NCBI RefSeq assembly: GCF_014203355.1
Contig: NZ_JACHIR010000001.1
Location: forward strand, 3,350,038-3,414,037
Origin: Kutzneria kofuensis
Lineage (GTDB): Bacteria > Actinomycetota > Actinomycetes > Mycobacteriales > Pseudonocardiaceae
Direction: 5' to 3'
DNA length: 64,000 nucleotides
Below the pieces are notes generated by a model. It ran no database searches. It had not been told where the DNA came from and worked only from the letters and a program-made list of their open reading frames with translations. A program made the position numbers and the translations under genes. Position 1 is the first letter of the stretch; every line of letters starts with the position of its first letter. Shown here piece by piece: positions 8,143 to 24,691 of the stretch.

Positions 8143-8143
8143 T

Positions 8144-9844
8144 TCAGCCTTGGAGAGAGCGGACTCGCTCGTGCAAAGCAGCGAACTCCTCGACCCGCTT
8201 GGTGCGCTGCTTCCACAGCACAGCGAGCCAGCGCAGCGCGATGGTGCGCCGCGCGGCCTCGAACCGAGCCCGGTTGTCCGGTGTGACGCCGAGGTCGGCT
8301 TCGGCGCTGGCCCAGACGTCGTCGGGAATGACGCGGGCGCTGATGTGCTCGATGTGGTCGGCGGCGTCGACGGCGATGTCGGAGTAGCCGCTGAACTCGA
8401 AGTCCGCGACGTAGGTGGACTCGCCGTCGTGGAGCCAGTTGAGCAGGTTCGCGTCGCCGCGGGAGTAGACGCGGGTGGCGGGCTGCCCGAGCAGTTCGGC
8501 GTCGCCGCTGTTCTCCCAGCGGTGCAGGAGAGCGAGCATGTCCGGGGTCTGGGGATCGTCGGCGGCGTCGGCGAGCTGGCCGGGCCAGACATCGGTGAGC
8601 CGGGCGATGTAGTGGCCGATGGAGTCGACGCGCTCCAGGCTGGCCAGCGGCTCTTTCAGCGGAACGCTCTGTAGAGCGCGGGTGGTGGTGGCCAGCGACT
8701 TGATGGCTGTCACCGGGTCGAGAACGTCAAGGATCGGTGCGCCGGGCAGCAGCGTCATGCCGAGGGCTGGCTGTTCGGGGTCCTCGTCGAGCCACAGCGG
8801 TTCCGGTGCGCTGCCCAGGCCGGCGACATGGGTGAGGCCGTGCCACTCGCGCTCGACGCGCTGCCGGTCGGTCTTCTTGTAGAGCTTGATGCAGATCGGC
8901 GTGGGGGCCGCGGTCCAGGCGAAGACGTCGTTGTTTCGGCCACCGTCGAGTGGGTGCAACCCGTGTTCTTCGAGCGTGGCGGCCAGTGCGTCGGCTCCGG
9001 CCGCACGCGCGGCGCGCAGGGCGCTGAGCAGGTCGGTGGGAGCGGAGTTCTCGCGGTTGCAGGCCAACGTGGTCATCGTTTCGGGCTCTCGGTTTCGGCT
9101 CGGCACGGATGGGCGGGTTTCAGCGTAGGAGACAGGCCCGGCGGACTCGTGGTGCCCCGCACATGGGCCTAGGTCGATGTCGCCCGTCTGGCTGATCTGA
9201 CGCAGGGTGGCGTGAATAGCGAGGTGGGTGTCGAGCAGGTCGAGTTCGTTGACATCAAGGACGGTGAGCTGTGGGTCTCGTTCGGCGAGCAGTGCGTAGG
9301 CGTGGTCAACCCAGACGAGGTGAGCGCGTTGTTCGCCGGTGAATGCGGGGCGGCGGTCTCCACTGCGTTGGTCGGCGCGATGGGCGGCGACCTCTGGGGG
9401 TACTCGCAGCCATAGCGCTCGGGTGGGGCGTGGCCCGGCCAGAGCTGTGAGGGCGTCCAGCCAGTCGAGCGCGACGTCGGCGGGTGCGCGGTGCTGGCGG
9501 AGTAAGGCGGCGATCGCGTAGGAAGCCATCGTGTGGATGCCGCGGTCTTCGATCACGACGCCGGCAGGGTTCGCGGCCAGCGCCGGATCGAGGACGGTGG
9601 CGACGAGGTCAGCCCGGATCGCGGCGGTATTCATGGTGTCGGTGATGGCGTCGCCGGTGCGCAGGAACGGATCGTCGCCGGTGCGCAGCAGGTCGACGAG
9701 GGCAGCCGAGATGGGCTCGGTGTCCAGGGTGGCCAGGTCGGGGAGGACGGTGACGTGGTGGCCGTTGGCTTCCAGGCACCTCGCGAGCATCCGGCTCTGT
9801 GTGCTCTTGCCGGCTCCGGGCAGCCCTTCGAACGTGATCAGCAC
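8144..9844 (-). CDS. thymidylate-kinase-like domain fused to aminoglycoside-phosphotransferase-like domain
   Basis: One continuous 566-codon frame encodes two enzymes. Residues 1-215 resemble dTMP kinase, with P-loop GLPGAGKST at 7-15 and an EDRG segment in place of the usual DR motif. A low-complexity linker spans about 215-260. Residues 262-566 resemble the APH/choline-kinase fold, with RGDANLLN at 462-469 (canonical HGDxxxxN, His replaced by Arg) and a VADFEFSGY metal-binding segment. The substrates are not known; a phosphorylated small molecule or nucleotide is likely. An ATG in the linker (METMTTLACN region) could allow separate translation of the second domain. This is the last gene of the operon; its start overlaps the preceding phosphatase by 7 bp. 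Confidence 0.82.
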   Translation of the reverse strand: MLITFEGLPGAGKSTQSRMLARCLEANGHHVTVLPDLATLDTEPISAALVDLLRTGDDPFLRTGDAITDTMNTAAIRADLVATVLDPALAANPAGVVIEDRGIHTMASYAIAALLRQHRAPADVALDWLDALTALAGPRPTRALWLRVPPEVAAHRADQRSGDRRPAFTGEQRAHLVWVDHAYALLAERDPQLTVLDVNELDLLDTHLAIHATLRQISQTGDIDLGPCAGHHESAGPVSYAETRPSVPSRNREPETMTTLACNRENSAPTDLLSALRAARAAGADALAATLEEHGLHPLDGGRNNDVFAWTAAPTPICIKLYKKTDRQRVEREWHGLTHVAGLGSAPEPLWLDEDPEQPALGMTLLPGAPILDVLDPVTAIKSLATTTRALQSVPLKEPLASLERVDSIGHYIARLTDVWPGQLADAADDPQTPDMLALLHRWENSGDAELLGQPATRVYSRGDANLLNWLHDGESTYVADFEFSGYSDIAVDAADHIEHISARVIPDDVWASAEADLGVTPDNRARFEAARRTIALRWLAVLWKQRTKRVEEFAALHERVRSLQG

Positions 9845-10662
9845 GCCATGACCTCCTTGCCGGTGAAGCCGTTGATCGCGCTCGCACGCTGGACGATGTC
9901 GAGGATGTCCTCAATCAGGGCGGGTGCGGCGGCGATGGTGCAGCGTGAGGCGGTGGTGTGGTCGGTGCCGTCCAGATCGGTCACGTGGGCGCCGGCTTCG
10001 CGGGCGATGACCGCCCCGGCGGCCATGTCCCAGGTGCGGTTGCCGAGGGTGATCGACGCACCGAGGGCAGAATCGGCCAGCAACGCGAGGTCGGCCGCGG
10101 CGGTTCCGAGCATGCGGATGCGTTGCGCTCGGGGCGCGAGGGCGGCGTGGATCGCCAGCATCGCCGCATTTCGAGCGGCGGCGCCGGGTCCGGTGCCGTA
10201 GTCGCCGATCGCGATGATCGCCTCATCCAGCCGCTCCGGACCGGCGATGCGGATCGGGTTGCCGTCCCGGCAGGCGCCGAGGCCGTCCGCCGCCCAGTAC
10301 GTGCGGTCGAGCTGGGGTAGGGCGATGACTCCGAGCAGAGGATCCTCGTCAACGACCAGGGCAAGGGAGATGCCGATCAGCGGGATGTCGTGGGTGAGGT
10401 TGGCAGTGCCGTCGACCGGGTCGATGACCCAGCGGGTGCCGCTGGTGGGGCCGCCTTCTTCTTCCCCTTGGACGCCGATACCGGGAGTGGCGCGGCTCAG
10501 CTCGTCGCGCAGGATCCGTTCGATGGCGAGGTCGACGTCGGTGGCCATGTCCCGGTCGCCCTTGCCAGTGCAGGTACGAGGGCGGTGGGTGCGCAAGAAC
10601 TCCGCGCCGTGCGCGACGGTCGCCTGGGCGAACAGCAGCAGTCCTGGCAGTTCGGTGGTCAC
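9838..10662 (-). CDS. inositol-monophosphatase-family phosphatase
   Basis: The 274-residue protein has the three family signatures: an acidic EEEGG loop, WVIDPVDGTANL (metal-binding aspartates) and TWDMAAGAVIAREAG. Family members remove phosphate from inositol phosphates, fructose-1,6-bisphosphate or 3'-phosphoadenosine phosphates in a Mg-dependent way. The GTG start at 10662 overlaps the stop of the upstream kinase as GTGA, so translation is probably coupled. A second, longer family member lies at the other end of the cluster (22866-24065), suggesting two dephosphorylation steps. The substrate is unknown. Confidence 0.9.
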   Translation of the reverse strand: MTTELPGLLLFAQATVAHGAEFLRTHRPRTCTGKGDRDMATDVDLAIERILRDELSRATPGIGVQGEEEGGPTSGTRWVIDPVDGTANLTHDIPLIGISLALVVDEDPLLGVIALPQLDRTYWAADGLGACRDGNPIRIAGPERLDEAIIAIGDYGTGPGAAARNAAMLAIHAALAPRAQRIRMLGTAAADLALLADSALGASITLGNRTWDMAAGAVIAREAGAHVTDLDGTDHTTASRCTIAAAPALIEDILDIVQRASAINGFTGKEVMAC

Positions 10663-11237
10663 GAGGTCTCCACGGTGGTCGGGGCCAGCGGATGAATCAC
10701 GGCGTCGGAGGGCGCGAGGGTGTCCAGGTGCCGAAGGACGATGTCGACGTTGGTCACGACAGGCTTTCCGGTGTCCAGCAGCAGTTTCGGGCCGGTAATC
10801 GGCACGGCGGTGGCAGCGAGTTCCTGGTGTAGCTGCGGGGTGCGGTTGGCCGCTGGGTGCCGGCCGTGCTGGTGATCGACGGTCAGCCGGGCGTGCGTGA
10901 CCTCGACCGGGCAGACGCATTCGAGCAGCAGCAGGGGTTGGTGGTGCGTCGCGGCGAAGGCGCGCAGGTCTTCGATCTGGCCGGGGGCCAGCCAGGTTCG
11001 CCCGTCGAGCACGACGGTCGTGGCGGGAGCACGCATCCACTGCCAGACCGCGGTGGCGAACAGGACCTGGACGCAGTGGTCGTCCTGGTCGCGGGTGTAG
11101 GTGGTGTGCTCGGTGCCGAACAGCGCGTGTCGGACGGTGTCTTTGCGCAGCAACAGCGCACCGGTGATGTGGCTGGTGAGCTGCTCGGCCAGTGTGGTCT
11201 TGCCGACGCCGGGTAGTCCGGCCAAGGCGATGATCAT
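10659..11237 (-). CDS. small P-loop kinase (AAA/shikimate-kinase-like)
   Basis: The 192-residue protein begins with MIIALAGLPGVGKTTLAEQL, a Walker A motif at about residues 7-15, and has a lid-like region with basic residues. Its size and layout match single-domain kinases of small molecules, such as those annotated AAA_33 or gluconate/adenylylsulfate-kinase-like. The ATG at 11237 overlaps the stop of the nucleotidyltransferase as ATGA, and its own stop overlaps the phosphatase start as GTGA. It is one of several kinases in the operon. I cannot assign the substrate. Confidence 0.8.
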   Translation of the reverse strand: MIIALAGLPGVGKTTLAEQLTSHITGALLLRKDTVRHALFGTEHTTYTRDQDDHCVQVLFATAVWQWMRAPATTVVLDGRTWLAPGQIEDLRAFAATHHQPLLLLECVCPVEVTHARLTVDHQHGRHPAANRTPQLHQELAATAVPITGPKLLLDTGKPVVTNVDIVLRHLDTLAPSDAVIHPLAPTTVETS

Positions 11238-12079
11238 CGGTGCGGCTCCTCGTCGATGGCGCAGCGGGCCGGGTGGGCGGGCAGCAATGGCCAATGCGAG
11301 CGCAGCACCGACCAGCCGGCGAGGACGTCGGCGTGGTGCGGGGCGGGCGGCGACGTCGTACGTACCTGGCGGATCGCGTCGGCGGCGAGTGCCCAGCCCG
11401 GCTGGGTCGCGAGCCGGGCCAGTGTGTGGTTGACCGCGTCGGACGGGGCGAGGACGGGGAGCGGATGGTCGTGCGGGGGAACCTTGACGCTGGTGCGGCG
11501 AGCCAGCAGATCGGGGACGTCGTCTTCGGTGCCGCGGCGAGGCAGGGTCGTGGCCAAGTCGACGACGATGAGCGGGACGATCGGGTCGCCGGTCGGCCGC
11601 GTCCAGGTCCCGCTGTCCCGGCTGGGCTGGTAACCCTGGGAGCGGAGGACGGCGTAAGTGCGTTCGGCGTCGCCAGGCGCGGTAAGCAGGTCGATGTCGC
11701 TGAACTGCCGGGCACCGGTGCTGGCGTAAAGGGAATGTTCCACGCTGAGTCCCCCGAGCACGACGGCGGCTACGCCAGCGGTGCGCAACTTCGCGGTGTC
11801 GGCGAGCGCGGCCACGCGGCAGGTATAGGTCTTGTACCGGTTGGTTCGCAGCGTGCTGTCGAGGAATCGCGTCACCGTGCGATCCAGCTCGGCGACGGGG
11901 TGGTCGTGCAGGTACGCGGCCAGTAGGCAGAGGGTCTTCGACCGCACCGACTGCCCAAGTACCGCGCCCAGTTCGGCCACCACGGCACGGGCGATCGTCT
12001 CGTGGTTGTCGGCGCCGGTGCCCCAGCACAAAGCCCGGACGGCGTCCTCGGCGAAGCGGCATGCCCGTCGGTCGGTCAT
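11234..12079 (-). CDS. NTP_transf_5-like nucleotidyltransferase-family protein
   Basis: Residues about 105-150 contain AVVLGGLSVEHSLY and FSDIDLL, which match the GG and DxD metal-binding signature of the uncharacterised nucleotidyltransferase family (NTP_transf_5). The chosen ATG at 12079 overlaps the stop of the HprK-like gene as ATGA; an upstream extension of the frame is open but not preceded by a ribosome-binding site. Proteins of this family are known beside HPr-kinase-like proteins in some lasso-peptide gene clusters, and the same pair is adjacent here. No RiPP maturation enzyme is seen in the window, so the pair probably modifies a non-peptide substrate. Confidence 0.7.
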   Translation of the reverse strand: MTDRRACRFAEDAVRALCWGTGADNHETIARAVVAELGAVLGQSVRSKTLCLLAAYLHDHPVAELDRTVTRFLDSTLRTNRYKTYTCRVAALADTAKLRTAGVAAVVLGGLSVEHSLYASTGARQFSDIDLLTAPGDAERTYAVLRSQGYQPSRDSGTWTRPTGDPIVPLIVVDLATTLPRRGTEDDVPDLLARRTSVKVPPHDHPLPVLAPSDAVNHTLARLATQPGWALAADAIRQVRTTSPPAPHHADVLAGWSVLRSHWPLLPAHPARCAIDEEPHR

Positions 12080-13263
12080 CCCCAACCACCCGGCCTGGCC
12101 GCTTGGGTCGCTGCGTGGTCGAGGAGGGCAACTACACGGGCTGCCAGCGCCGCGGGCGAATCGGTAACCGGGATCCGAACACACGGCACGGTTCGAGCGA
12201 GCTGGTCTGCGACGGCGGTGAGCGAGAGCGCGGTCCGATCTTGGTCGGGCGGCAGCAGCCAGTGGTTGCGGTGCGAGGTGGTGCTGGTGACCGGTTCGTG
12301 CATGAAGAACTGGGTGCGTACCAGGACGTCGCGGACCTCGGCCGCAGGTACCGGCTCGGGCGGGAGGTCGCTGGCACTGCGGTAGGGCCAGAGCATCAGC
12401 GTGGGCCGGACCTCGCCAACGATCCGCATGTCGGGCAGCGTGGCCCGTAGCTCGTCTGGCTCGATCGCGATCTTGCCGCTGAGCGCGGCCTGGCCGGCCA
12501 GGCCGTTCTGCTGCTGTTCTGCGGACAGGAACCTGCTCATCCCCGGAACGGCGTGCAGCGTGCTGGCGGTGGCGCGCAGGTGCATCGGCCAGGCGTGGCC
12601 GACCGTGCCGCCGTCGGGGTCGCAGTGGAGCAGAAGCCGGTCGTTGGTGACGAAGTCCCCGCCCACCAGCCGCAGCGCGCTCAGCAGGGTGGTGGTCTTG
12701 CCCGCGCCCTTCGGCCCGGCGATCAGCAGGCCGTGCCCGGCGTGCACGAGCGCGGCGGCGTGCGCGTAGACCGCGTCGTGCTCCAGAAGCTGGGCGGTCA
12801 TCGCCTGTCGCACGAGTCGGGCGGCGAAGAACCGCGCGGCGTCCAGGTCGCTGGCGTGCACGGTGATCGTGCCGAGCAGGTGGTCGAGGTGCACGAGGGT
12901 GGCGTGTTCGCGGATCCAGAACGCTCTCCCGCCGGGCATGCCGATCGACTGCGCCTGCAAGTTCGGGCCGATGTCATGGTCGTCCGTGTCGGCGAACAGG
13001 GCGGTCGCGCCGGCCTGGTCGACGGGAACGCCCGTGTGCAGGGTGATGGTCCACCGGCTGGCCGCGGTCCTGGTGCGCGCGTAGGAGTAGAGCGTGGTCT
13101 CTGCGTCCCTGATCAGCTCGCCGCGGTCTGCGCGCAGGGTGACGCTGGCCGCTCCCTGGGTGAAGCGGCGCGTCGCGCGAGCGGGTGCGGCGTAGCCGAT
13201 CAGCGGCCGGATCGGACAGGAGGCATCGGTGGGCGCGGGTTGATGCTTGCGCGAGCTCGTCAT
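12076..13263 (-). CDS. HPr kinase/phosphorylase-like P-loop protein
   Basis: This 395-residue protein has a P-loop at 183-191 (GPKGAGKTT) preceded by a GLLIAG strand, in the C-terminal half typical of HprK-like kinases. It lacks the long N-terminal domain of true HPr kinase, and no HPr or PTS gene is nearby. Related proteins in actinomycetes phosphorylate the C-terminus of lasso peptides or have unknown roles. It overlaps both neighbours by 4 bp (ATGA), placing it firmly within the operon. Kinase activity is likely; the substrate is unknown. Confidence 0.72.
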   Translation of the reverse strand: MTSSRKHQPAPTDASCPIRPLIGYAAPARATRRFTQGAASVTLRADRGELIRDAETTLYSYARTRTAASRWTITLHTGVPVDQAGATALFADTDDHDIGPNLQAQSIGMPGGRAFWIREHATLVHLDHLLGTITVHASDLDAARFFAARLVRQAMTAQLLEHDAVYAHAAALVHAGHGLLIAGPKGAGKTTTLLSALRLVGGDFVTNDRLLLHCDPDGGTVGHAWPMHLRATASTLHAVPGMSRFLSAEQQQNGLAGQAALSGKIAIEPDELRATLPDMRIVGEVRPTLMLWPYRSASDLPPEPVPAAEVRDVLVRTQFFMHEPVTSTTSHRNHWLLPPDQDRTALSLTAVADQLARTVPCVRIPVTDSPAALAARVVALLDHAATQAARPGGWG

Positions 13264-14135
13264 GGCGCCGTGGCGAGGACTGGGCGGTGGCCGAAATGCG
13301 CGGCGTGCTCCTGCAGCCGAGCCAGTTCGGCGGCCGGAGCATGGCGGTAGAGCGCGGCCAGTCCAGAGGGCATCAGCAGGGCCTCGGCCCAGCTCGGGAA
13401 TTCACCGCGCCGCAGAGGTCGCTCGGTGAGCTCGCGGCTGGAGCCGACAACGGCGATCTCCGAGGCCGTGCGCGCGATGGTCAACTCGGGAGCGGGCGCC
13501 GCCCGGTACTTCAGGTCACTGTCGACCGCCTCCCGGCTGGTGTGTCCGGTCCGCAGGTCAGCGACATCGGTGTAGATGTTGAACACCACCGCCGGGGCGT
13601 CGAGCACGGCGGTCAGGTGCCAGGCACCGAAAGGGATGACGACGTGATCACCGGCCTGACATACGTGATAGTCCATTGTGGAGTTACCGTCGTCGTCGAT
13701 GTTGGTGTGCAACACGAGAACCCGGCCGGACAAGCACTGGAAGATTTCGACCTGAGCCGCGGTGTTCCAGTGGCCGAGCGACCGGCCGAGTTCCGGGCTG
13801 TGGCCGAGGTTCGCCGCGGTGTAGACGACGAGGTCGGCGAACCAGGCGTGCGTGCCGTCCGCGTCCGCGTCCGTCTGGTCGGTCTTGGGTCGGGGCGCGG
13901 CGATGTCGCGATAGGCGAGGTAGAGCTGCGGGTCGGTGCCGTGAAGAAGCATCGCGCGCACCTCGTCGGGGTTGGCCAGGTAGACCGACCCGTCGGCGTC
14001 AGCGCCCGCCAGCAGGTCGCGGAGGTGGCGGGCCCGGCCTTCGCAGGTTGATGCCGCGACGAGCAGGTCCAGGCCGCTCGGCGGCAGCAGGCGGGGAGCG
14101 ACACGGGCCGTGGGGATGTCCAGCGGCGTGATCAT
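13260..14135 (-). CDS. cupin-fold protein
   Basis: The ATG at 14135 has a GAGGA ribosome-binding site 10 nt upstream. Residues about 140-205 contain the two cupin segments: LGHWNTAAQVEIFQCLSG and then CQAGDHVVIPFGAWH, which carry possible metal-binding Glu and His residues. The rest of the 291-residue protein is not recognisable, although the arrangement recalls glucose-6-phosphate-isomerase-type cupins. A role as a sugar-phosphate isomerase or other sugar-modifying enzyme would fit the neighbours (epimerase, TIM-barrel isomerase, HAD phosphatase), but this is inference. Confidence 0.65.
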   Translation of the reverse strand: MITPLDIPTARVAPRLLPPSGLDLLVAASTCEGRARHLRDLLAGADADGSVYLANPDEVRAMLLHGTDPQLYLAYRDIAAPRPKTDQTDADADGTHAWFADLVVYTAANLGHSPELGRSLGHWNTAAQVEIFQCLSGRVLVLHTNIDDDGNSTMDYHVCQAGDHVVIPFGAWHLTAVLDAPAVVFNIYTDVADLRTGHTSREAVDSDLKYRAAPAPELTIARTASEIAVVGSSRELTERPLRRGEFPSWAEALLMPSGLAALYRHAPAAELARLQEHAAHFGHRPVLATAP

Positions 14136-14164
14136 CAAACGGGTTCCTCGGTTGGGTGATGGGC

Positions 14165-14911
14165 TCAGGAGCAAGTGGCCAGGACGGCGATCGGCATCTG
14201 GTCGAGGCTGGTGATGGCCCGCACGCCGGCAGGACAGGGCTTGCCAGCCGGGTTGAACAGCACCGCGCGGCATCCGGCGTTCAGCGCGCCGTGGATGTCG
14301 GTGGTCACGCTGTTGCCGACGTGCACCACCCGGCTCAGATCCGTACCTGCGGCGGTGGCGACCGCGGCGAACATCTCCCAGCGTGGTTTGGCCAGCCCGA
14401 CGTCAGAGGAAAAGACGGTCTCGTCGAACACGGTGGTCAGGTCGTGGTCGTCGAGGATGAGCCGGGATACCGACGCCGGAGTGGCCAGGGTGTTGGAGGT
14501 CAACACGAGCCGAGCTCCGGCCTGCCTCAGTGCCCAGAGCGCGCTGTGCGCGCCGGGGATGATGTCGGGGCAGGCTCGCAAGACCGCATGAGTGTGCGGG
14601 ACGAGCAGGGTGTCGATCAGCCGCGTGTCGAGGGGCAGGCCCATGACGGTGAGCATCTGCTCGACTTGGCCACGCACCGGAGGTTGTTCGCCAGTTGTAC
14701 GTTGACGTCGTTGGGTGTCCGCGCGCACGGCGAGGATCGCTTCACGGACCTTGCCGTCGGGAAGGTCGTGACCGAACTCGGTGAGCACGGTCTCGAACTC
14801 GCGAATCCGCCAGGCGGCTTCGGCCTCGCGATCGCCGTATGTGATCAGCGTCGCCCACAGATCGACGCTGACCACCCAGCCCTCCAACGGATCTGCCGCG
14901 ACCGGTGTCAC
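14165..14911 (-). CDS. HAD-superfamily hydrolase
   Basis: The 248-residue protein has HAD motif I as VSVDLWATLI (nucleophile D17, second acid replaced by Trp, as in the FDLWGTL subgroup), motif II LVLTSNT, a Lys in GLAKPRWEMF, and motif IV VVHVGNSVTTDI. This arrangement is typical of class-I phosphatases with a helical cap. The ATG overlaps the stop of the epimerase gene by 4 bp. Within this operon it could dephosphorylate a sugar phosphate or nucleotide; the substrate is not determined. Confidence 0.85.
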   Translation of the reverse strand: MTPVAADPLEGWVVSVDLWATLITYGDREAEAAWRIREFETVLTEFGHDLPDGKVREAILAVRADTQRRQRTTGEQPPVRGQVEQMLTVMGLPLDTRLIDTLLVPHTHAVLRACPDIIPGAHSALWALRQAGARLVLTSNTLATPASVSRLILDDHDLTTVFDETVFSSDVGLAKPRWEMFAAVATAAGTDLSRVVHVGNSVTTDIHGALNAGCRAVLFNPAGKPCPAGVRAITSLDQMPIAVLATCS

Positions 14912-15630
14912 GTCCGCTCCTCGACGCGCTCTCCGTCGAACGCCACGTCGCTCCGTTGGCGGTGAAGCCAGGTGGTGGTGGCGGCGAGGTCGTCGCTGCC
15001 CAGCAACAACGATCCGGCGACCACAGCGTCGGCACCCGCGTCGGCGAGCTCGGGAACGGTGTTCTCGCGGATGCCGCCGTCGGCAATGACCGGAAGCTGG
15101 TCTTGGCCGGTGCGGGCGGCCAACGCCCGCAGCTGCCGCACACGATCCGGCGCGGCCGGATCCATCGTGGTGCCCTTGGTGCCCAGCGGTGTGCCGATGA
15201 GAACCACGAAGTCGATGTCGTCGAGGTGCGCTTCCACGGTGTCGACGGGCGTGTCCAGGCGCAGCGCGAGGCCGGCGGCACCGCCCCGCGTCCGGATCGC
15301 TTGCAGGGCGTCGGCGACGTCGTCGGCTTCCGCGTGGACGGACAGCAGGTCTACCCCGGCGCGGGCGAAGTCCTCGACCAAGGGCAGGGCGTGCTCGGCC
15401 ATGACGTGGACGTGGAAAGGCACCTGCGTGTGCGAACGCAGCGCCGCGACGAGGTCGGGGAAGAACAGCGGGCTGGGCACGAACCGGGTGTCGGAGGCGT
15501 CGATGTGGAAGACGTCTGCGTAGGGGGTCAGCCGGGCGACCTCCGCGCCGAGGTCGGCCAAGTCAGCCGACCACAGCGACACCTCGACCGCGAGCCGGTC
15601 GCGCGGGTACAGGTCAGCCAGCGGCAGCAT
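14908..15630 (-). CDS. ribulose-phosphate 3-epimerase-family TIM barrel
   Basis: The 240-residue protein keeps the family strands: AVEVSLWSADL at the N-terminus, VFHIDASDTRFVPSP (canonical hxDxMDG changed to DASD), PFHVHVMAEH, and the phosphate-binding IADGGIRENT and ADAVVAGSLLLG. Ribulose-phosphate epimerases interconvert ribulose-5-phosphate and xylulose-5-phosphate. The altered MDG motif suggests a changed substrate, so this is probably a pathway-specific homologue rather than the housekeeping enzyme. It overlaps the upstream isomerase by 17 bp and the downstream HAD gene by 4 bp. Confidence 0.85.
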   Translation of the reverse strand: MLPLADLYPRDRLAVEVSLWSADLADLGAEVARLTPYADVFHIDASDTRFVPSPLFFPDLVAALRSHTQVPFHVHVMAEHALPLVEDFARAGVDLLSVHAEADDVADALQAIRTRGGAAGLALRLDTPVDTVEAHLDDIDFVVLIGTPLGTKGTTMDPAAPDRVRQLRALAARTGQDQLPVIADGGIRENTVPELADAGADAVVAGSLLLGSDDLAATTTWLHRQRSDVAFDGERVEERT

Positions 15631-16540: not shown

Positions 16541-16581
16541 GACGGCTCCTTGTCGGATCGGTGGTGGAGTGGAGGGCTTGG

Positions 16582-17034: not shown

Positions 17035-17070
17035 AGGGATGCTCCTCATTCGAGGGTCGGCGGGGTTGGG

Positions 17071-17784
17071 TCAGCTCGCCACGGCCGCACCGACGGTGGC
17101 CAGTGCTGCGAAGAACTCATGAGCCCGGTGGTCGGGGTATCGGCCACCGCGCATGGCCGGGATGTAGAACTCGCGGACCCGATCCCAGGTCCAGGGCTGG
17201 TGCTCGAACTCGGCTTCGACGCCGTTGTTGACCAGGGACGTCCAGCGGCGCAAGCAACTGGAGCAGCGGCCACAGTGGACGGTGCTGCCGTCGGTGCGAC
17301 TGCAGGAGAACGTCAGCAGCAGGTGCTCGACCGGCAGGCCCTGCGCCAAATACCAGGCGATGATGTCGGTCTTGGTCATGTCCCAGAAGGGGCTGTCGAC
17401 TCGGGTCGGTTTCTCCGAGAAGCGGGCGATGAACCGGCCCATGTCGGCGAACGCGTCGCGGCTCTTGTCGAGGGTGTGGTCGCCCTTGACGCCGATGCAC
17501 CACACCATTTCCGCGCGGTTGGAGGCGTGCATCGCCAGGTGCACGTTGCGCAGCGGGATGATCGCGTCCTCGGCTTCCCACGCTCCCAGCCGGAGCTCGT
17601 CGCTGATCTCGATCTCGATACCGGCGGCGTCGGACAGCGCGGCGACGGCGGCGCGTTCCTGGCTGGCGTAGCGGTGACCGAGGTCGAAGTACAGGCCCGG
17701 TGGGCGGCCGAGATAGTGCCAGGCGGGGTAGGAGTCCAACCCGGCGGAGAACAGCAGGACCTCGGGGATCCGGGGCTCGGTCAT
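17071..17784 (-). CDS. queC: 7-cyano-7-deazaguanine synthase-like protein (QueC)
   Basis: The 237-residue protein begins LLFSAGLDSYP, an ATP-pyrophosphatase PP-loop at 13-18 (SAGLDS, one residue different from the usual SGGxDS/T). A zinc site is formed by Cys161, 171, 174 and 177 (CGRCSSC). QueC converts 7-carboxy-7-deazaguanine and ammonia to preQ0 at the cost of ATP. The start overlaps the upstream kinase stop as ATGA, and QueE and QueD lie just upstream in the same operon, so the assignment is well supported. QueC-like proteins also occur in Qat and type IV CBASS defence systems, which is the main alternative. Confidence 0.85.
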   Translation of the reverse strand: MTEPRIPEVLLFSAGLDSYPAWHYLGRPPGLYFDLGHRYASQERAAVAALSDAAGIEIEISDELRLGAWEAEDAIIPLRNVHLAMHASNRAEMVWCIGVKGDHTLDKSRDAFADMGRFIARFSEKPTRVDSPFWDMTKTDIIAWYLAQGLPVEHLLLTFSCSRTDGSTVHCGRCSSCLRRWTSLVNNGVEAEFEHQPWTWDRVREFYIPAMRGGRYPDHRAHEFFAALATVGAAVAS

Positions 17785-18533
17785 CGCAAAGCTCCTGTCT
17801 GGATGTGCAACACGGGCGCGAGCAGTTCGTCGATCTCGGCCAGCACGCTCGGCGTGGTCCGGGTGCCGACCCGGATCCGCCGAACGCGGTCGGGGAGGGC
17901 GTCGGCGAGCAGGCGGTAGGCGTGGCTGTAGCGAGGCAGGAACAACAGCCGTTCCACCGAGCCGGGATTGCCTCCGCCGCGACCTCGGGCGATGGCGCGT
18001 TCGCGGGCCAGCGGCCAGGGAGTGTCCAGCCACAGCGCGACGTCGGGGTGTAGAAACCACGGAGCGACTACCTCTCGAAGCTGGTCCAGCAGCAGCGTCG
18101 GGTCGACGTCCGGGTGTTGCTCAGACAACACCGCCAGGGCGTAGGCGAGCTTGGAGTACACGCCGTGGTCGATGACCACGACGTCATGCTCGGCCAGCGC
18201 CGGCCGGTAGAGGACGCGGTGGTTGTAGGACTCCCGACACAACCGCAGCAGGACATCAACTGTGGCGTGGTGCGCCGAGTCGTAGCCGCCAATACCGTCG
18301 CGGCGACGCAGCGGAGCTGTGTCGAGGATGTCCGAAAGGCGTTCGATGACGCCGTGGCGGGGGCCGTAGTGCAGCACGCGCGTGGAGAACCCCGCGGCGG
18401 TGAGCCGCGCGCTCAGCGCGGTGGCGGTCGTGGTCTTTCCGCCGCCCCAGATTCCTTCGACGGTGATCAGCACACCGCGGGCGGCCTCGTATGGCGGCAC
18501 TTCGGCACGGCTGGCGGCGGGGTCAGCGGCCAC
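17781..18533 (-). CDS. thymidylate-kinase-like P-loop kinase
   Basis: The 250-residue protein has Walker A EGIWGGGKTTT at about residues 27-36, a VVVIDHGVYSKLAY segment in the position of the DR motif of dTMP kinases, and an arginine-rich lid (ARERAIARGRGGG). These fit a nucleoside-monophosphate kinase acting on a modified nucleotide. It is sandwiched between queE (11-bp overlap) and queC (4-bp overlap), so it is almost certainly co-translated with the preQ0 genes. The replacement of the DR motif argues against ordinary dTMP as substrate. Confidence 0.82.
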   Translation of the reverse strand: MAADPAASRAEVPPYEAARGVLITVEGIWGGGKTTTATALSARLTAAGFSTRVLHYGPRHGVIERLSDILDTAPLRRRDGIGGYDSAHHATVDVLLRLCRESYNHRVLYRPALAEHDVVVIDHGVYSKLAYALAVLSEQHPDVDPTLLLDQLREVVAPWFLHPDVALWLDTPWPLARERAIARGRGGGNPGSVERLLFLPRYSHAYRLLADALPDRVRRIRVGTRTTPSVLAEIDELLAPVLHIQTGALR

Positions 18534-19236
18534 GCTGGTCTCCCCACGTGAGCAGGTGCAACCGCGTGCTGAGGTGGAAGCCCCGCTCGATGGCCGGGTC
18601 GGCGATCTCGGCCAGGCGTCGGGTGACCTCTTCGGCGGTGCGGCCTTCGGGCATCACGTAGACCGGCGCCAAGTCGTGGCTGGAGACGAGCTCGGTGATC
18701 TCGTCGAGGTCGGCGATGCTGGAGACGACGAACTTGAACACCGCCCGGCCGCTGACCGCGAAGTGGCCAAGCACCCGTCGCTTAATCCGTTTGGAGGCCG
18801 GCATTCCGGCTCCGAACGTCGACAGCTTCGGCGACACGTTGAACTGGCTCACCCAGGCGAGCAGGTCAGGTGCGGGCGCGATCGTGCCGTTGGTCTCGAT
18901 CTCCACCCGCAGCCCGGCGTCCACGAGTCCCTGAGCGAGGGCGATGAGGCGACGTTGCTGGATCAGGGGTTCGCCGCCCGTGATGACCACGAGGTCGACC
19001 GGCTGGGCCGTCGCCCAGGCCAGGAGATCGCTGACCGAGGTGACGGTGGCTTCGGCATCCAGGTCGAACCGGGAGTCGTCCCAGGTGTAGGGGGTGTCGC
19101 AGGTCTTGCAGGTCAAGTTGCAGTTCATCAGCCGGACGAACACGGCACGTCGTCCGGTCGACGGGCCTTCGCCTTGCACGGTCGGGCCGAACCTCTCCGC
19201 GACGAGCAGTTCGTCATCGGCCAGCGTGATCGTCAC
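18523..19236 (-). CDS. queE: 7-carboxy-7-deazaguanine synthase (QueE), radical SAM
   Basis: Starting at the GTG that overlaps the QueD stop as GTGA, the protein is 237 residues. The [4Fe-4S] cluster site is CNLTCKTC at 39-46 (CxxxCxxC), preceded by the family-specific FGPTVQGEGPSTG and followed by DTPYTWD and ITGGEPL. QueE ring-contracts 6-carboxytetrahydropterin to 7-carboxy-7-deazaguanine using S-adenosylmethionine. The gene is in the correct pathway order between QueD and QueC. All key cluster cysteines are present. Confidence 0.92.
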   Translation of the reverse strand: MTITLADDELLVAERFGPTVQGEGPSTGRRAVFVRLMNCNLTCKTCDTPYTWDDSRFDLDAEATVTSVSDLLAWATAQPVDLVVITGGEPLIQQRRLIALAQGLVDAGLRVEIETNGTIAPAPDLLAWVSQFNVSPKLSTFGAGMPASKRIKRRVLGHFAVSGRAVFKFVVSSIADLDEITELVSSHDLAPVYVMPEGRTAEEVTRRLAEIADPAIERGFHLSTRLHLLTWGDQRGR

Positions 19237-20027
19237 CGGCCGCTCCGCTCGTCCTGGGTGAACTCGGCCCATCGGCGCGGCGACTCCCAGACGCGAAGCG
19301 CCTGGACCGCGGCGGCCTCTTGTCCTTTGGCCTGGCTAAGGGTCCAGGCATACAGGTGCTCAGCAACCAGCTCCGACGTCGGCTGGAACTGGAGCACGGC
19401 GTTCAAGTCGCGGTGGTCCAGTTGACGGTCGAGATACTCGGCGAGCAGGGCGCGAATCCTGGCGCGACGGCGGGGGCTTGTCTGCTGGTCCAGCCGGAGG
19501 TCCACCCGATAGGAGTGACCGTGAGGCCGGCCGCACTTATGTCCGTCCGGCAACCCCTCCAGGTGGTGAGCCGCCTCGAACGCAAACGAGTCGACCGCGG
19601 TGTGCTGAGGCGACCTGGTAGTTGTGCCGATGTTGACGTGGATGGCGTGGAGCTGCTTCCCACGCTCGGACGGCATGTGGGCCAGGAACCACGCGGTGAT
19701 GTGCTGTGCGAGCGCGTCGGTGGTGGTGTCGAAGGTGAATATGGCATTGAGGTCGCGATGATCCAGTTCGCGCTTGAGGTATTCGCCGAGCGTGGCGAGT
19801 TCGGCGTAGTCCGCCACGAAACCGGGTGCCCGCAGTTCGGTGTCTGTGAGCTCGACCTCGACAGTGAAGGTATGACCGTGGGACCGCCCGGCCTTGTTCT
19901 CGGCGTCAGGAAGATCGGTGAGGTGGTGCGCCGCGGCGAACGAGAAGGTGCCGTCGCCGATGCTGTAACGTCCCCGAGCCAGGTCGCTCACCGCGACTCG
20001 GGTTGAGCTCACTGGATGGGGTTTCAC
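19233..20027 (-). CDS. queD: tandem-duplicated 6-carboxytetrahydropterin synthase (QueD-QueD)
   Basis: The GTG at 20027 with GAGAGGA upstream gives 264 residues, twice the normal QueD length. Each half has the family pattern. Half one: FAAAHHL, AGRSHGH, LDHRDLN. Half two: FEAAHHL, CGRPHGH, LDHRDLN, PTSELVAEH. The zinc histidines are kept in both. The catalytic Cys before HGH is present only in the second half (Ala46 in the first), and the conserved Glu of PTSE is Asp in the first. The second half is therefore likely the active site and the first a structural or altered-specificity copy. QueD makes 6-carboxytetrahydropterin from dihydroneopterin triphosphate. It is followed by queE with a 4-bp overlap. 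Confidence 0.9.
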   Translation of the reverse strand: MKPHPVSSTRVAVSDLARGRYSIGDGTFSFAAAHHLTDLPDAENKAGRSHGHTFTVEVELTDTELRAPGFVADYAELATLGEYLKRELDHRDLNAIFTFDTTTDALAQHITAWFLAHMPSERGKQLHAIHVNIGTTTRSPQHTAVDSFAFEAAHHLEGLPDGHKCGRPHGHSYRVDLRLDQQTSPRRRARIRALLAEYLDRQLDHRDLNAVLQFQPTSELVAEHLYAWTLSQAKGQEAAAVQALRVWESPRRWAEFTQDERSGR

Positions 20028-20119
20028 ATTCCGTCCTCTCGTTGCGAACCGCTTAAGACCAGCTCTTATGGAATCGCGATGTGGATCGGGGCGGGAGGGC
20101 TCACGAGGGGGCTCACGAA

Positions 20120-20947
20120 TCACCTGGCGGATGGCAGCGTGCGCTCCCAGCCGGCCTGACGGGCTACGAGGTGGATGGGCAGGCAGTGGGGCAGCCGTAC
20201 GCGCAGTTCAGCGCCGACCCGCGTGCGGACCTGCGTGTTCGCTGGCGCAAGCCGCGCGTCGAGCGCCACATCGGCGGCAACACGTGCGATGAATTCCCAG
20301 GTTGGCCGTGTTTCGGCGAGAACGGCGGGGTGGCGCCGGAGTTCGTCGACAGGGTGGCGGAATACCCATTCGTGCGGGCGAAGTTGCTCGACCTCGAACC
20401 AACGATCCGGGTCAGAATCGTCAGGCAAGGCGTGCTCGAACCCGATTGACTCCGTTTGTTGACTGTCCAGGCGAAACACCCAGGAATAGCCTTCGTTGTC
20501 AATGTCGCGAAGCGTTTGTTTGAACAGTTCGACGTTCTGAGCAAGGACGTCATCGCGTATGATGCTAGCCCGACTATCAATGCGCGCTCGACACCACTCC
20601 GCGCTGGCGGTGAACACCAGGGCGACTGTAGGTATCTCGAATTCTGCTGCGATGTCGAGGAGTTCCGCGCGCCGATCCCCGCGGAGATTGGTGGAGTCGA
20701 CTACGGTAGTGACCCTGTTCCGGAGACGCTGACGGAGCATGTCAAGCAGTTGCCTGCGCGCCGCGGAGCTGTTCGACTGACTGGCCGGGTCGTTGCACAT
20801 TCGGGCACGAAACTCATCCATCGAGAGGATTTCAACAGGGGCGAAGTGCCGGTACGCCAGGGTGCTCTTACCGCTCCCTTGCAGGCCGACTAGAATTATC
20901 AGAGCGGGATTCGGGATGTTGATTTTAAAAGCGTCGAAGGTCTTCAT
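20120..20947 (-). CDS. P-loop kinase, polynucleotide-kinase/PNKP-like
   Basis: The 275-residue protein opens with a strand and Walker A (LIILVGLQGSGKST, about residues 16-29), then ILSMDEFRAR and VVDSTNLRGDRR, the arrangement seen in the kinase domain of bacterial Pnkp and related AAA_33 kinases. The C-terminal 100 residues are not recognisable. It lies 92 bp upstream of the tandem queD gene and 19 bp downstream of the regulator, on the same strand. Its role in the cluster could be phosphorylation of a nucleoside or sugar hydroxyl. Its base composition is less GC-rich in the first half than that of its neighbours. Confidence 0.78.
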   Translation of the reverse strand: MKTFDAFKINIPNPALIILVGLQGSGKSTLAYRHFAPVEILSMDEFRARMCNDPASQSNSSAARRQLLDMLRQRLRNRVTTVVDSTNLRGDRRAELLDIAAEFEIPTVALVFTASAEWCRARIDSRASIIRDDVLAQNVELFKQTLRDIDNEGYSWVFRLDSQQTESIGFEHALPDDSDPDRWFEVEQLRPHEWVFRHPVDELRRHPAVLAETRPTWEFIARVAADVALDARLAPANTQVRTRVGAELRVRLPHCLPIHLVARQAGWERTLPSAR

Positions 20948-20966
20948 GATCAGGTTCTTTCCGCTC

Positions 20967-22352
20967 TCAAGCCGTAGATATTTCGGTCTTTATCCGACGT
21001 GTCAGTTCGACAACGCCGGGTTCGGTGCGCCAGCGTGACATCCGGGAAATCAGAGCCTGGAGGTAGTCCACAGCGCGGGCCGAACTGACGATAGCGAGAG
21101 CGGAGACGGCGCGGTGGCCGTGGTCCAGTGCCTGTTCGAGGTCGGGCTGGTACCCCTGCAAGTAGGTGCTACCGAGGACGCTTTGGCGGATGGCGTACGC
21201 CCTGACGAAGGTGTCGATAGGCATGGCGGCGAACTCGTTCCACCGTTGCGCCTCGCGCGGCCGGCCCAGATCGCGGTGGATCTCGATTGCGTCCGAGGCG
21301 AGCCGGTGCTCGTCGAAGAAGTCGATCCAAGCGGGGTCGTCGCCGGTACAAGAGCGTGCGGCGTCGAGCAGGCGCTCGGCTGTGGTCAGGGCGCCGTCGG
21401 CCATGCGGGCGTTGCCGCTGCGTGCCCAAATGCGGGCCTCGATCAGCTTGAAGAAGCCCTTCACGCGCGGCGTGGCGTGCCCACCGACGCGGTGAAACGC
21501 GCTGTCGGCCATGTCGATCGCGTCGTCGTGGAAGCCGCCGAGGCTGCACTGTAGGGCGATGCAGGTCAGCACGTAGCCGCCGAGCTGGACATCCCCCGCA
21601 GCGCGAGCTTGACGTAGCGCCTGGATGTAGTGCCGTTGGGCGTTGGCGTGGTCGCCGTTGTCGAACGCGGTCCATCCGGCGAGCCGGGCGAGTTGCGCCG
21701 TGGCGGTGAACAGCCGGCGCCCGACGGTGTCGCTGTAGGAGCCGTGCAACAGCGGAGCCGCCCGCTCCTTCAGACAAACAGTGAGCTGCGAGGTTCGCCA
21801 GTTCCCGCCCCCGTACCGGGAATCCCACTGCCGGGCCTGCTCGGCTGTTTCGAGCAGCTCGACGACATCCGCCTTTCCAACGCGCCGGAAGGCCGCCGGT
21901 GACTGCGAGGCTGCGCTGGCGTCAGCGGGGAGCGCCAGCCAGCGACGAACCGGGGTGTTGTAGTTGACCACTGCGACGCCGGGGCCGCGGACGTCGCGGC
22001 TGTCCACCTGGCTCCAAAACCTGGTCGCGACTTGCACGGCGGTGCCGAGCTCGCGTGGGAACTCCAAGCCGCTGCCTGAGTCCACGCCAGGGTCGTGATC
22101 AAGGTCGATCTCTGCCAGGCTGACCGGCCGCCCGAGTCGTTCTTCCAAGACCTGGGCGATGAGCGGGCGTACCGCCTGTGCCGGGCGCGTTCCCCTCTTC
22201 ATCCAGTTCGTCCAACTGGTGTGGGTGTAGTGCGTCTCCAGGCCGGCGGTCTCTGCAAGCTGGTTGAGCCGGAAGGCCAACGACTTCTTCGCCGCACCAG
22301 ACGCCTCCACCAGGCGGGTCAAGGCGATGTTGGGCCGGGCCGTGGCGCTCAT
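20967..22352 (-). CDS. HTH/TPR-type regulator of actinomycete specialised clusters
   Basis: This 461-residue protein has an N-terminal segment (residues about 10-60, containing SGAAKKSLAFRLNQLAETAG and WTNWMKRG) that resembles a degenerate XRE-type DNA-binding domain. A long alpha-helical region of TPR-like repeats follows (LARLAGWTAFDNGDHANAQ and following). This architecture is very common in Streptomyces and Pseudonocardia regulators next to biosynthetic genes. It is the first gene upstream of the preQ0 operon on the same strand and is the best candidate for its control. No ligand can be inferred. Confidence 0.78.
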   Translation of the reverse strand: MSATARPNIALTRLVEASGAAKKSLAFRLNQLAETAGLETHYTHTSWTNWMKRGTRPAQAVRPLIAQVLEERLGRPVSLAEIDLDHDPGVDSGSGLEFPRELGTAVQVATRFWSQVDSRDVRGPGVAVVNYNTPVRRWLALPADASAASQSPAAFRRVGKADVVELLETAEQARQWDSRYGGGNWRTSQLTVCLKERAAPLLHGSYSDTVGRRLFTATAQLARLAGWTAFDNGDHANAQRHYIQALRQARAAGDVQLGGYVLTCIALQCSLGGFHDDAIDMADSAFHRVGGHATPRVKGFFKLIEARIWARSGNARMADGALTTAERLLDAARSCTGDDPAWIDFFDEHRLASDAIEIHRDLGRPREAQRWNEFAAMPIDTFVRAYAIRQSVLGSTYLQGYQPDLEQALDHGHRAVSALAIVSSARAVDYLQALISRMSRWRTEPGVVELTRRIKTEISTA

Positions 22353-22862: not shown

Positions 22863-22865
22863 CTG

Positions 22866-24065
22866 TCACCTCGCCGCGCCTTGAGCATCGCGCCATCGCA
22901 CCTGCCCTTCGACCAGGTACGCCTCTACGTCATCCACCGAGCCTTCGTCTGCCTGCCATGCGATGCAGCCCTTAGCTTCCATCGCATAACGCCCACGCTG
23001 GACCGCGCCGAACAGGAAAGCCCCCGCTGCACCACGCGGGCGTTGCACGACCCAGGCGGGAAACTCAGCCAGGGGTAGTTCTCGCTCGATCCAAGTCTGC
23101 GCATCGCGCGACGAGGAGAACTCCCTCTCGGCAAGCGTGTCCGCGGTGTCGTCGTCGCCGATACCCACCCCGATCGTCGCCAAGAAGGCCGTTGCTCCGA
23201 CAACGCGTTTTCTTGCAGGCCGCGCAGTCGAGGCTGTCTCGCCTTCGGTTGCTGAAATCGGCCAGTATCGAGTACCGCGAAGGATGCGCAGAAGCGGGAG
23301 CAGTGCGTCCCCCAAGCTCGGTGTCACCGCAACGGCACAACGCGAACTGGTGTTGTGCTGGCTACCGTCCGCGTCAACGACGAGTGCGCCGGCTTCGCGG
23401 GCGATGATCGCTCCAGCCGCCGTGTCCCAACTGCGGTTGCCAAGCGTGAGACTGGCATCGAGAGTGCCGTCAGCCACCCAGACCAACTCGACCGCCGACG
23501 ACCCGATGCGCCGAACTCGTTGTGCGCGTTGAGAAAGCGCCTGATCGAGCCTGGCGGACGCCCCCGTTCGCGCTACACCTCCCTCTCCTGCTCCGTAGTC
23601 ACTGAGCGAAATAAGTGATTCCTCAAGGGTTTTCGTGCGCGAGACAGCTATGGGGTCGCCGTCTCGGAATGCCCCGTGGCCTCTCGTTGCCCAGTACCGG
23701 TGGTGAAGGAAGGGCGTGTCAATGACGCCGAGAAGGGGTTGATCAACGTGGATGAGCCCGAGAGCCACCGCACACAACGGAACCCCGTGGACGAAGTTGA
23801 CAGTCCCGTCAACAGGATCGAGGACCCAGTACACCTCCGGGTTGCCGGTCCCCCCGGTTTCCTCACCGACGAAGCCGACGTCCGGCGTCTGCTCCTGGAG
23901 GTGGTCTCGTACAAGTCGTTCGATGGCCAGCTCGACCTCGGTCACCAGATCGCGATCACCCTTGGCCTGAACTTCGCCGGCCCGGTTGCGCATCAGGAGG
24001 TCGATCGCTTTGTCCATAGCGCCATGCGCAACGTCAAGCAGGCGTGTTGTGTCGAACGTGCTCAT
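22866..24065 (-). CDS. inositol-monophosphatase-family protein with an extra C-terminal domain
   Basis: The first 260 residues are a complete family member, with GFVGEETGG, YWVLDPVDGTVNF and SWDTAAGAIIAREAG. A further 140 residues follow, including ELPLAEFPAWVVQRPRG and FLFGAVQRGRYAME, which form an unrecognised domain. At 399 residues the protein is about half as long again as usual. It is a paralogue of the phosphatase at 9838-10662 and the most upstream gene of the minus-strand block. The chosen ATG at 24065 has only a weak ribosome-binding site (AAGGG, 14 nt away); a nearby alternative cannot be excluded. Confidence 0.82.
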   Translation of the reverse strand: MSTFDTTRLLDVAHGAMDKAIDLLMRNRAGEVQAKGDRDLVTEVELAIERLVRDHLQEQTPDVGFVGEETGGTGNPEVYWVLDPVDGTVNFVHGVPLCAVALGLIHVDQPLLGVIDTPFLHHRYWATRGHGAFRDGDPIAVSRTKTLEESLISLSDYGAGEGGVARTGASARLDQALSQRAQRVRRIGSSAVELVWVADGTLDASLTLGNRSWDTAAGAIIAREAGALVVDADGSQHNTSSRCAVAVTPSLGDALLPLLRILRGTRYWPISATEGETASTARPARKRVVGATAFLATIGVGIGDDDTADTLAEREFSSSRDAQTWIERELPLAEFPAWVVQRPRGAAGAFLFGAVQRGRYAMEAKGCIAWQADEGSVDDVEAYLVEGQVRWRDAQGAAR

Positions 24066-24553: not shown

Positions 24554-24691
24554 TCAACCCGCCAAGATCGTGACGAGGTACCGTCCACAACCCGTCCGCT
24601 GGACGTCCGCAGGACAGCCTGCTGAGCATCGCGGCATCCACGTCGGGCACCATGGCGGTGACCGTCATGCAGGACAGGGAGGGACCTTCAC

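Follow-up and report, generated by a model that had tools for sequence, protein, structure and literature searches.

A conserved sixteen-gene run

The 64,000-nucleotide stretch of Kutzneria kofuensis DNA analyzed here (the window, to which positions refer unless a locus label precedes them) carries a minus-strand run of 16 genes at 8144-22352. In this run, QueD, QueE (7-carboxy-7-deazaguanine, CDG, synthase) and a divergent member of the QueC family, here named QueC*, stand together with a nucleoside 2-deoxyribosyltransferase-family gene (NDT) and with genes of kinase, epimerase and phosphatase families (Table 1). The family of clusters to which the run belongs is real, conserved and mobile. 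From 5' to 3', the order is NsdA-family regulator, AAA_33 kinase (PNK_A), QueD-QueD, QueE, thymidylate-kinase-like TMPK_A, QueC*, NDT, TIM barrel, ribulose-phosphate 3-epimerase (RPE), HAD, cupin-like, HprK-like, NTP_transf_5, a second AAA_33 kinase (AAA33_B), IMPase (IMP_B) and a TMPK-APH fusion. With gene starts chosen by the authors (QueC* at 17784; QueE at 19236, its longest open reading frame, ORF, beginning at 19272), neighboring genes overlap by 4-17 bp at 11 of the 15 junctions and are separated by 19-41 bp at the other four. This is the overlapping run that an earlier note on this DNA had described, corrected at its upstream end, where the NsdA-family regulator and PNK_A open it and a distal IMPase gene falls outside.

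Table 1. Genes of the run in their 5' to 3' order, followed by the NUDIX gene at its edge
Gene	Position	Strand	Evidence
NsdA-family TPR regulator, opens the run	20967..22352	-	NCBIfam NF053720, 355 bits (cut-off 75)
PNK_A, AAA_33 polynucleotide-kinase-like P-loop kinase	20120..20947	-	PF13671 4.2e-28
Fused QueD-QueD, one ORF	19233..20123	-	PF01242 2.8e-39, two stretches
QueE, CDG synthase	18523..19236	-	NCBIfam QueE models 1.7e-28 and 3.8e-25, under cut-offs; radical-SAM motif CNLTCKTC
TMPK_A, thymidylate/deoxynucleoside-kinase-like	17781..18533	-	PF02223 1.7e-7
QueC*, divergent QueC-family enzyme	17071..17784	-	PF06508 3.7e-10
NDT, nucleoside 2-deoxyribosyltransferase family	16582..17049	-	PF05014 1.4e-14; PDB 7o62 2.8e-17
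TIM barrel, xylose-isomerase-like, of the class of ketose or ketose-phosphate epimerases	15614..16540	-	PF01261 1e-20; PDB 3qxb 1.5e-52, 4k3z 1.7e-13
RPE, ribulose-phosphate 3-epimerase family	14908..15630	-	PF00834 1.1e-39; PDB 5umf 9.1e-35
HAD-superfamily hydrolase	14165..14911	-	PF00702 1.1e-12; motif I VDLWAT (second Asp to Trp)
Cupin-like protein	13260..14135	-	No Pfam match; PDB 4luk E 0.23, weak; WbuC cupin model 16.5 bits (cut-off 42)
HprK-like kinase	12076..13263	-	NCBIfam HprK_rel_B 4.6e-10, 39 bits (cut-off 200)
NTP_transf_5, nucleotidyltransferase-like	11234..12079	-	PF14907 1.7e-18
AAA33_B, AAA_33 P-loop kinase	10659..11237	-	PF13671 4.3e-15
IMP_B, IMPase-family phosphatase	9838..10662	-	PF00459 1.6e-46
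TMPK-like kinase and APH-like phosphotransferase fusion	8144..9844	-	PF02223 4.8e-7; APH model 4.4e-4, far under cut-off
NUDIX hydrolase, convergent, edge of conserved block, possible member	7609..8142	+	PF00293 5.1e-11

The gene content given in the earlier note stands, with Pfam support for both thymidylate-kinase-like genes, IMPase, both AAA_33 kinases, NTP_transf_5, HAD, the ribulose-phosphate 3-epimerase, the xylose-isomerase-like gene, NDT, QueC, radical SAM and QueD. Its HprK-like and cupin labels are less secure: the HprK-like name, as well as that of the APH-like domain, comes from NCBIfam matches far under their cut-offs, and the cupin matches are weak. Searches for RNA families, tRNAs and promoter patterns gave nothing useful.

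A scan of genome contigs for the double QueD found seven loci, in Amycolatopsis rubida (100% identity), Amycolatopsis sp. GM8 (86%), Saccharothrix deserti (81%) and Actinokineospora fastidiosa (80%), the other three being remote and matching by QueD alone or by QueD and QueE. All 16 genes are present in the same order in A. rubida, GM8, a genome labeled G584 and a plasmid of Amycolatopsis AA4, and in S. deserti they extend across two contigs with the break within HprK. The search for the syntenic block across actinobacteria that the earlier note had suggested also found a nearly identical core order in other Pseudonocardiaceae, in Streptosporangium, in a genome of another family of the same class (G828, where TMPK and APH lie on the other strand) and on Streptomyces linear plasmids, which carry a phosphoribosyltransferase (PRTase) in place of NDT. 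TMPK_A is found in all non-remnant clusters examined, the NsdA-family regulator keeps its position in five further type A (Pseudonocardiaceae) loci, and PNK_A is confined to type A clusters by tblastn; the TMPK and APH parts that are fused in the window are encoded separately in Streptosporangium and Streptomyces. The locus of Actinokineospora fastidiosa (L030 9998-11680) has QueD-QueD, QueE and a start fragment of TMPK_A only, with no TMPK-APH match in its genome at E 0.001, and is apparently a remnant of the cluster.

The ratio of nonsynonymous to synonymous substitution rates (dN/dS), estimated pairwise against GM8, AA4 and G584, is 0.08-0.51 and thus below 1 for all 16 genes. Because of these ratios and the conserved order in other genomes and plasmids, the gene set is more than a chance association.

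The cluster is also rare, since few genomes and plasmid records carry QueC*. It was found in two of 394 genomes drawn across the class (the window genome and G828), the same two that have a full-length HprK-like gene (at least 364 bits; 13 more genomes have partial matches of at most 67 bits), and in one of seven genomes of the window's genus, the window genome itself. A phylum-wide draw gave QueC* search matches in two of 396 genomes, the window genome and G173, whose match groups with the Cap9 of PDB 9nto in the tree described below. Among 72,556 plasmid records, 36 matched QueC*, and the 20 matches listed comprise seven records at 55% identity or more and 13 at 26-32%; the HprK-like gene occurs on seven records, exactly those with QueC* at 55% or more. 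The plasmid context was examined in five of these seven (Amycolatopsis AA4, Streptosporangium NBC_01495 and three Streptomyces).

QueC*, a divergent QueC-family enzyme

According to passages of Libby et al. (PMC13329287), the Escherichia coli QueC substitutions Y35A, R99A, Y131A and Y189A cause loss of function. Three of these four essential residues (Y35, Y131 and Y189) are replaced in all ten QueC* copies aligned, the plasmid copies of Streptomyces liliifuscus and of a second Streptomyces longwoodensis having been left out of the alignment. YPDC reads -LDK in nine copies and -ADK in one and is kept in none; the Tyr of SCY is Ser in seven, Met in one and Phe in two, and is likewise kept in none; and the YGQ of the first motif is LGH, LDH or IRH throughout. 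The SGGxDS motif is SAGLDS in nine of the ten, and the zinc cysteines and the RN motif, which holds the Arg, are intact in all.

In a maximum-likelihood tree of 34 rows, the ten QueC* proteins form their own branch (support 99/94), which is joined by three phage proteins that share its DK motif (99/95). With four long branches dropped, QueC* holds at 99/96 and the grouping with the phage proteins is weaker (90/89). Of 30 genome loci, the tree includes the 12 in which a single open frame holds both SGGxDS and the Cys motif, so that divergent members may be left out; G173 entered without its first residues and JG012 trimmed to its QueC part. The PDB sequence matches of QueC* are to Cap9, plus QatC with a profile, with no canonical QueC chain among them at the thresholds used. 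QueC* scores 28 bits against the NCBIfam QueC model (TIGR00364), under its cut-off of 150.3, 26 bits against the QatC model (cut-off 280) and 63.7 bits against the PADLOC QueC model, and its structure prediction has a mean pLDDT of 33.

Because QueC* belongs to a divergent clade without YPDC and two other residues essential in E. coli, the nitrile preQ0 (7-cyano-7-deazaguanine) is an unlikely product, and QueC* is probably not a preQ0 synthase, contrary to the "preQ0-based" pathway of the earlier note; it would instead be an amide-forming CDG ligase. An alternative is that QueC* is a fast-evolving preQ0 synthase and that the product of the cluster is a nucleoside antibiotic derived from preQ0, either cyano or amide, as a variant of toyocamycin/sangivamycin chemistry. 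Consistent with it, QueC* passes the Pfam QueC cut-off (40 versus 22 bits), retains the cysteines and RN described above, shares its run with QueD and QueE, and is the sole QueC-family gene of the window genome. This alternative is considered unlikely: the equivalents of the three tyrosines are replaced in every copy (PMC13329287), the clade remains separate with or without the long branches, G584 has a canonical QueC besides QueC*, about 16 kb apart, and neither GMP reductase nor nitrile hydratase is above cut-off among the Pfam matches. A second QueC-family match in the window genome, considered as a canonical QueC, was rejected as an asparagine synthase.

Upstream of the QueC* cluster of G584 (L049 640-7933), the canonical QueC is accompanied by glycosyltransferase-like, radical SAM-like and 5'-3' exonuclease-like genes, named by reading. 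The three phage proteins, which retain the SCY Tyr, come from two human faeces contigs and one Bacteroides phage (L106 2253-5096; L074 5010-10107; L073 4992-9006), and their genes adjoin DpdA-like and QueE-like genes, with QueD- and FolE-like genes also in L106 (mostly named by reading). They may represent a QueC subfamily in DNA modification for which preQ0 synthesis is doubtful. A scan of viral contigs gave no close relatives of QueC*. Among phages, the 20 matches listed of 39 have 26-31% identity.

Candidate pathway and its alternatives

The QueD-QueD gene of the earlier note is present as a single fused ORF, in which the Cys-x3-His-Gly-His motif is complete in the second half; the Cys is missing from the first half, as it is in GM8 and AA4, and this half is a probable pseudoenzyme. 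FolE is absent from the block, as had been claimed, although two FolE-family genes lie elsewhere in the window genome and the family is present in seven of seven genomes. Host FolE, followed by the second half of QueD and by QueE, would convert GTP to CDG, which is well supported as an intermediate by family assignments and motifs. tRNA-guanine transglycosylase (TGT) and QueF were both absent from all seven genomes, with controls positive in 14 of 14 for TGT and 8 of 14 for QueF; the pathway is therefore not queuosine, as the earlier note had held, and housekeeping queuosine synthesis was rejected on this ground. The window genome also has no TGT-family (PF01702) match, no DpdA-specific model having been run.

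The clusters have two architectures around QueC*. In Pseudonocardiaceae, Streptosporangium and G828 it adjoins NDT, and in the Streptomyces form it lies next to the PRTase, with TMPK_A shifted to after the TIM barrel. The Streptomyces form additionally has FolE, an adenylation-carrier protein, a 685-residue protein without a Pfam match, a radical SAM protein, a DegT aminotransferase, two more HAD proteins and one methyltransferase (Pfam was run on one of the three Streptomyces clusters). This exchange of NDT and PRTase suggests that both enzymes glycosylate the base. NDT enzymes prefer deoxyribose, and the NDT of the run would add this sugar, whereas the PRTase would add ribose-5-phosphate. 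For the latter, TubE of tubercidin biosynthesis, described in passages of PMC6112128 as a CDG-specific phosphoribosyltransferase, is a precedent. The NDT motifs YIAAPLF and D-E-G-x-x-x-E-L-G are present in six of the nine clusters tested, the six with NDT; here and below, motif counts over the nine clusters cover aligned segments only. An NDT 63% identical to that of the window was also found in Embleya sp. NBC_00888 (L122 4225-14483). There, a canonical QueC, QueD, QueE and FolE are within 10 kb of this NDT and of a 5'-3' exonuclease-like gene; the distance from the NDT is about 5 kb for FolE and 9 kb for QueC, and QueD and QueE lie in between. This is perhaps another type of 7-deazaguanine locus. 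The proximity of this NDT to canonical queC, queD, queE and folE independently links NDT to 7-deazaguanines.

Here it is proposed, with moderate confidence, that the 16 genes at 8144-22352 form a mobile biosynthetic cluster of actinobacteria, from an undescribed family, which makes a CDG-derived 7-deazaguanine, likely a nucleoside or nucleotide, the identity of the product being read from the genes. After CDG, which may be glycosylated before this step, QueC* would activate the carboxylate with ATP and form an amide with ammonia or another amine, stopping before the nitrile; this is suggested by the lost preQ0-synthase residues and by the closest PDB sequence, that of Cap9, an enzyme that attaches CDG to a protein. 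The TMPK- and AAA-type kinases would phosphorylate the nucleoside, and by analogy, the TIM-barrel epimerase, the RPE-type epimerase, the cupin isomerase-like protein and HAD could supply a rarer sugar. The HprK-like kinase and NTP_transf_5 may then place a phosphate and a sugar onto a hydroxyl, as is reported for PsmK and PsmN. More speculatively, the IMPase and possibly NUDIX would strip phosphates at the end, and APH may give self-protection. The phosphorylated nucleoside with a remodeled sugar that the earlier note had suggested is a plausible product.

The pair invoked for the last decoration is known from lasso peptides (PadeK and PsmK/PsmN), in which, according to passages of PMC9266682, an HprK-like enzyme with His-Lys-Asp-Asp residues adjoins a nucleotidyltransferase-like gene. 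For pseudomycoidin, the phosphorylation is assigned to PsmK, and hexose addition requires PsmN, which is annotated as a nucleotidyltransferase and may or may not transfer the hexose itself (PMC9266682). In the window protein, His168, Lys189, Asp203 and Asp208 are invariant in eight of eight rows and appear to correspond to the published residues; the profile had no PDB match at E 0.1. The window differs in having no lasso B or C families among its Pfam matches, and the substrate would be a small molecule. For the sugar, the epimerase is closer to ribulose-phosphate 3-epimerases than to allulose-6-phosphate epimerase, and the IMP_B motifs GEE, DPVDGT and WDMA are present in eight of nine clusters, the eight with IMP_B. 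Sugar and phosphate decoration of the product is plausible. That QueC* ligates free or glycosylated CDG to a small amine, and that HprK-like and NTP_transf_5 add a phosphate-bridged sugar, giving a new class of phosphoglycosylated 7-deazaguanines, is put forward only tentatively. If true, QueC* would add another type of chemistry to the preQ0 synthesis and protein deazaguanylation of the QueC family, and phosphoglycosylated 7-deazaguanine metabolites would be spread by actinobacterial plasmids and integrative elements.

Several observations weigh against the proposed biosynthetic cluster or parts of it. QueC* keeps the zinc cysteines, RN and a conserved Lys, so that it may yet make preQ0 by altered residues, and it lacks the YDC motif that Cap9 keeps, so that its CDG binding is putative; QueE scores under the equivalog cut-offs. 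Similarly, the likeness of the cupin to a cupin-type glucose-6-phosphate isomerase is weak (E 0.23), the six non-Streptomyces HAD copies lack the usual second Asp of motif I, and the Streptomyces TIM barrel belongs to another subfamily (no match at 1e-8). NTP_transf_5 has D-x-D in six of nine clusters (none from Streptomyces) and GGxS in four, the P-loop pattern of AAA33_B is found in eight of nine, and the IMPase was not found in the G828 cluster. Furthermore, the clusters examined have no conserved transporter gene in common, which is unusual for a secreted product.

The cluster falls under a broad definition of 7-deazapurine clusters, having QueD and QueE next to glycosylating and tailoring genes by family and motif. 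Like the toyocamycin/sangivamycin and tubercidin clusters, it would lead through QueD and QueE to CDG, and the Streptomyces forms further share FolE, PRTase and HAD with them; passages on tubercidin also list NUDIX and kinase genes (PMC6112128). In contrast, none of the above-cut-off Pfam matches of the window genes is to GMP reductase, UbiD decarboxylase or nitrile hydratase (a cross-match of the RPE gene to IMPDH/GMP-reductase is sub-threshold); the window has NDT for PRTase and additionally encodes HprK, NTP_transf_5, two epimerases, a cupin and IMPase. The huimycin cluster of Kutzneria albida, whose HuiB is 72% identical to ToyM, shares QueD, QueE and a QueC-family gene, but has FolE, a methyltransferase and a glycosyltransferase, which the window core lacks (passages of PMC7439116). 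The gene content is thus unlike that of toyocamycin and tubercidin, as the earlier note had stated, and also unlike that of huimycin, as far as the passages describing them go. Queuosine and Dpd loci share QueD, QueE and a QueC-family gene, with no TGT-family or QueF match in the seven genomes here. "Cluster 4" of the QueC family, as described in passages of PMC13329287, also has a QueC-like gene beside an NDT-domain gene; by this description, to which the comparison is limited, its NDT is fused to PfkB, it is mostly from Proteobacteria and its Cys motif is another.

No published description of this gene set was found in the open-licence literature (titles and starts of abstracts), so that a description elsewhere is possible; as far as searched, the family is undescribed and is not a known characterized cluster. 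To our knowledge, few 7-deazapurine clusters have been characterized, and echiguanine and kanagawamicin may be without an identified cluster. The orphan compound cadeguomycin likewise has no identified cluster according to passages of PMC12648386. The plasmid-borne genes of the family form a defined set. It includes a QueC paralogue whose predicted product is something other than preQ0, an NDT with a possible role in the glycosylation of 7-deazaguanines, and a pairing of kinase and nucleotidyltransferase for which the other descriptions found concern lasso peptides.

Another reading is that the cluster makes an intracellular protective nucleotide, e.g., a chain-terminating or signaling 7-deazaguanine nucleotide against phages. 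The several nucleoside-monophosphate-type kinases, the missing conserved transporter and the carriage on mobile elements would suit it, as would a STAND ATPase with a PADLOC match directly outside the block in the window. QueC relatives also make CDG conjugates in type IV CBASS and Qat, whose Cap9 and QatC are the closest PDB sequences to QueC*, Cap9 using CDG and ATP; however, no CD-NTase, Cap10 or QatA/D family is among the Pfam matches of the cluster, and QueC* lacks the YDC of Cap9. The PADLOC matches of the six cluster proteins scanned (of 16) form no known system, the flanks of the plasmid clusters are not defense-like by annotation, and NsdA-type regulation together with the Streptomyces adenylation-carrier, radical SAM and aminotransferase genes points to a specialized metabolite, which makes this reading improbable.

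It is very improbable that deoxynucleotides made by NDT and the kinases enter DNA via a polymerase route, without DpdA. The deoxyribose preference of NDT enzymes, the TMPK-like kinases and the position in the tree of three phages, beside DpdA-like genes (named by reading), as nearest relatives of QueC* would agree with this; the cluster has no polymerase or TGT-family gene among its Pfam matches, TGT is found in none of the seven genomes, the Streptomyces PRTase would give a ribonucleotide, and the sugar genes would be unexplained. Finally, that the run is a fortuitous or degenerate grouping of unrelated genes, as the reduced Actinokineospora fastidiosa locus might suggest, or a housekeeping queuosine operon, has a negligible probability and is refuted by conservation, given the conserved order, purifying selection and absence of TGT and QueF. 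The coherent multi-gene 7-deazaguanine pathway of the earlier note is conserved as a block, its other genes being kept together with queD, queE and queC.

Mobility and flanking genes

The rpoB gene of the window genome is 87.2% identical at the nucleotide level to that of A. rubida and 87.4% to that of GM8, with 91.2% between these two, so that by rpoB the window genome appears to belong to a genus other than Amycolatopsis. Despite this identity of only 87%, about 52 kb of the window (7593-59903) matches A. rubida in long pieces at 94.8-98.7%, which shows that the cluster is mobile. The pieces are 98.7% (18.5 kb), 100% (0.3 kb), 98.2% (13.1 kb), 94.8% (15.5 kb) and 96.4% (4.2 kb), separated by inserts in A. 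rubida, and the last stops at the end of the compared DNA. A TrwB/TraG-like coupling protein is encoded at 57793-60687, and the region 7593-59903 is taken to be a recently transferred integrative or conjugative element.

The match is shorter elsewhere, at about 89%, running from 7590 or 7593 to 22.5 or 23.0 kb in GM8 and G584 and from 8143 to 22.4 kb in AA4; in S. deserti it runs from 7593 to the contig end. With its left edge at 8143, the AA4 match begins just beyond the NUDIX gene; the matches of A. rubida, GM8, Saccharothrix and G584 begin ahead of it, at 7590-7593. AA4 has its cluster on a plasmid of 306 kb, for which the typing is mobilizable, MOBP. Since the synonymous divergence (dS) of the cluster against GM8, AA4 and G584 (0.12-0.55) is similar to that of rpoB against GM8 and G584 (0.31 and 0.33), this measure gives no signal of transfer among GM8, AA4 and G584; transfer is evident for A. 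rubida.

The IMPase at 22866-24065, which the earlier note had counted in the set, lies 513 bp upstream of the run and outside the conserved block. It was dropped as a cluster member, being absent by tblastn from that place in GM8, AA4, G584 and Saccharothrix and shared there, among the loci examined, with A. rubida only. To the left of the cluster, the window encodes at 1716-7580 a 978-residue STAND ATPase (PADLOC STAND_TPR 4.9e-97), along with an IS481-like transposase and a protein of 611 residues whose PADLOC match is weak. On the other side, an IMPase and a HAD gene flank the cluster in the window (22866-25354), an IMPase 57% identical to that at 22866-24065 is found near the G584 cluster together with a second QueD, NUDIX and HAD (L050 9280-13615), and QueD and NUDIX genes are near that of Saccharothrix (L052 2287-3795). 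These flanking IMPase, QueD, NUDIX and HAD genes are perhaps remnants of an auxiliary module.

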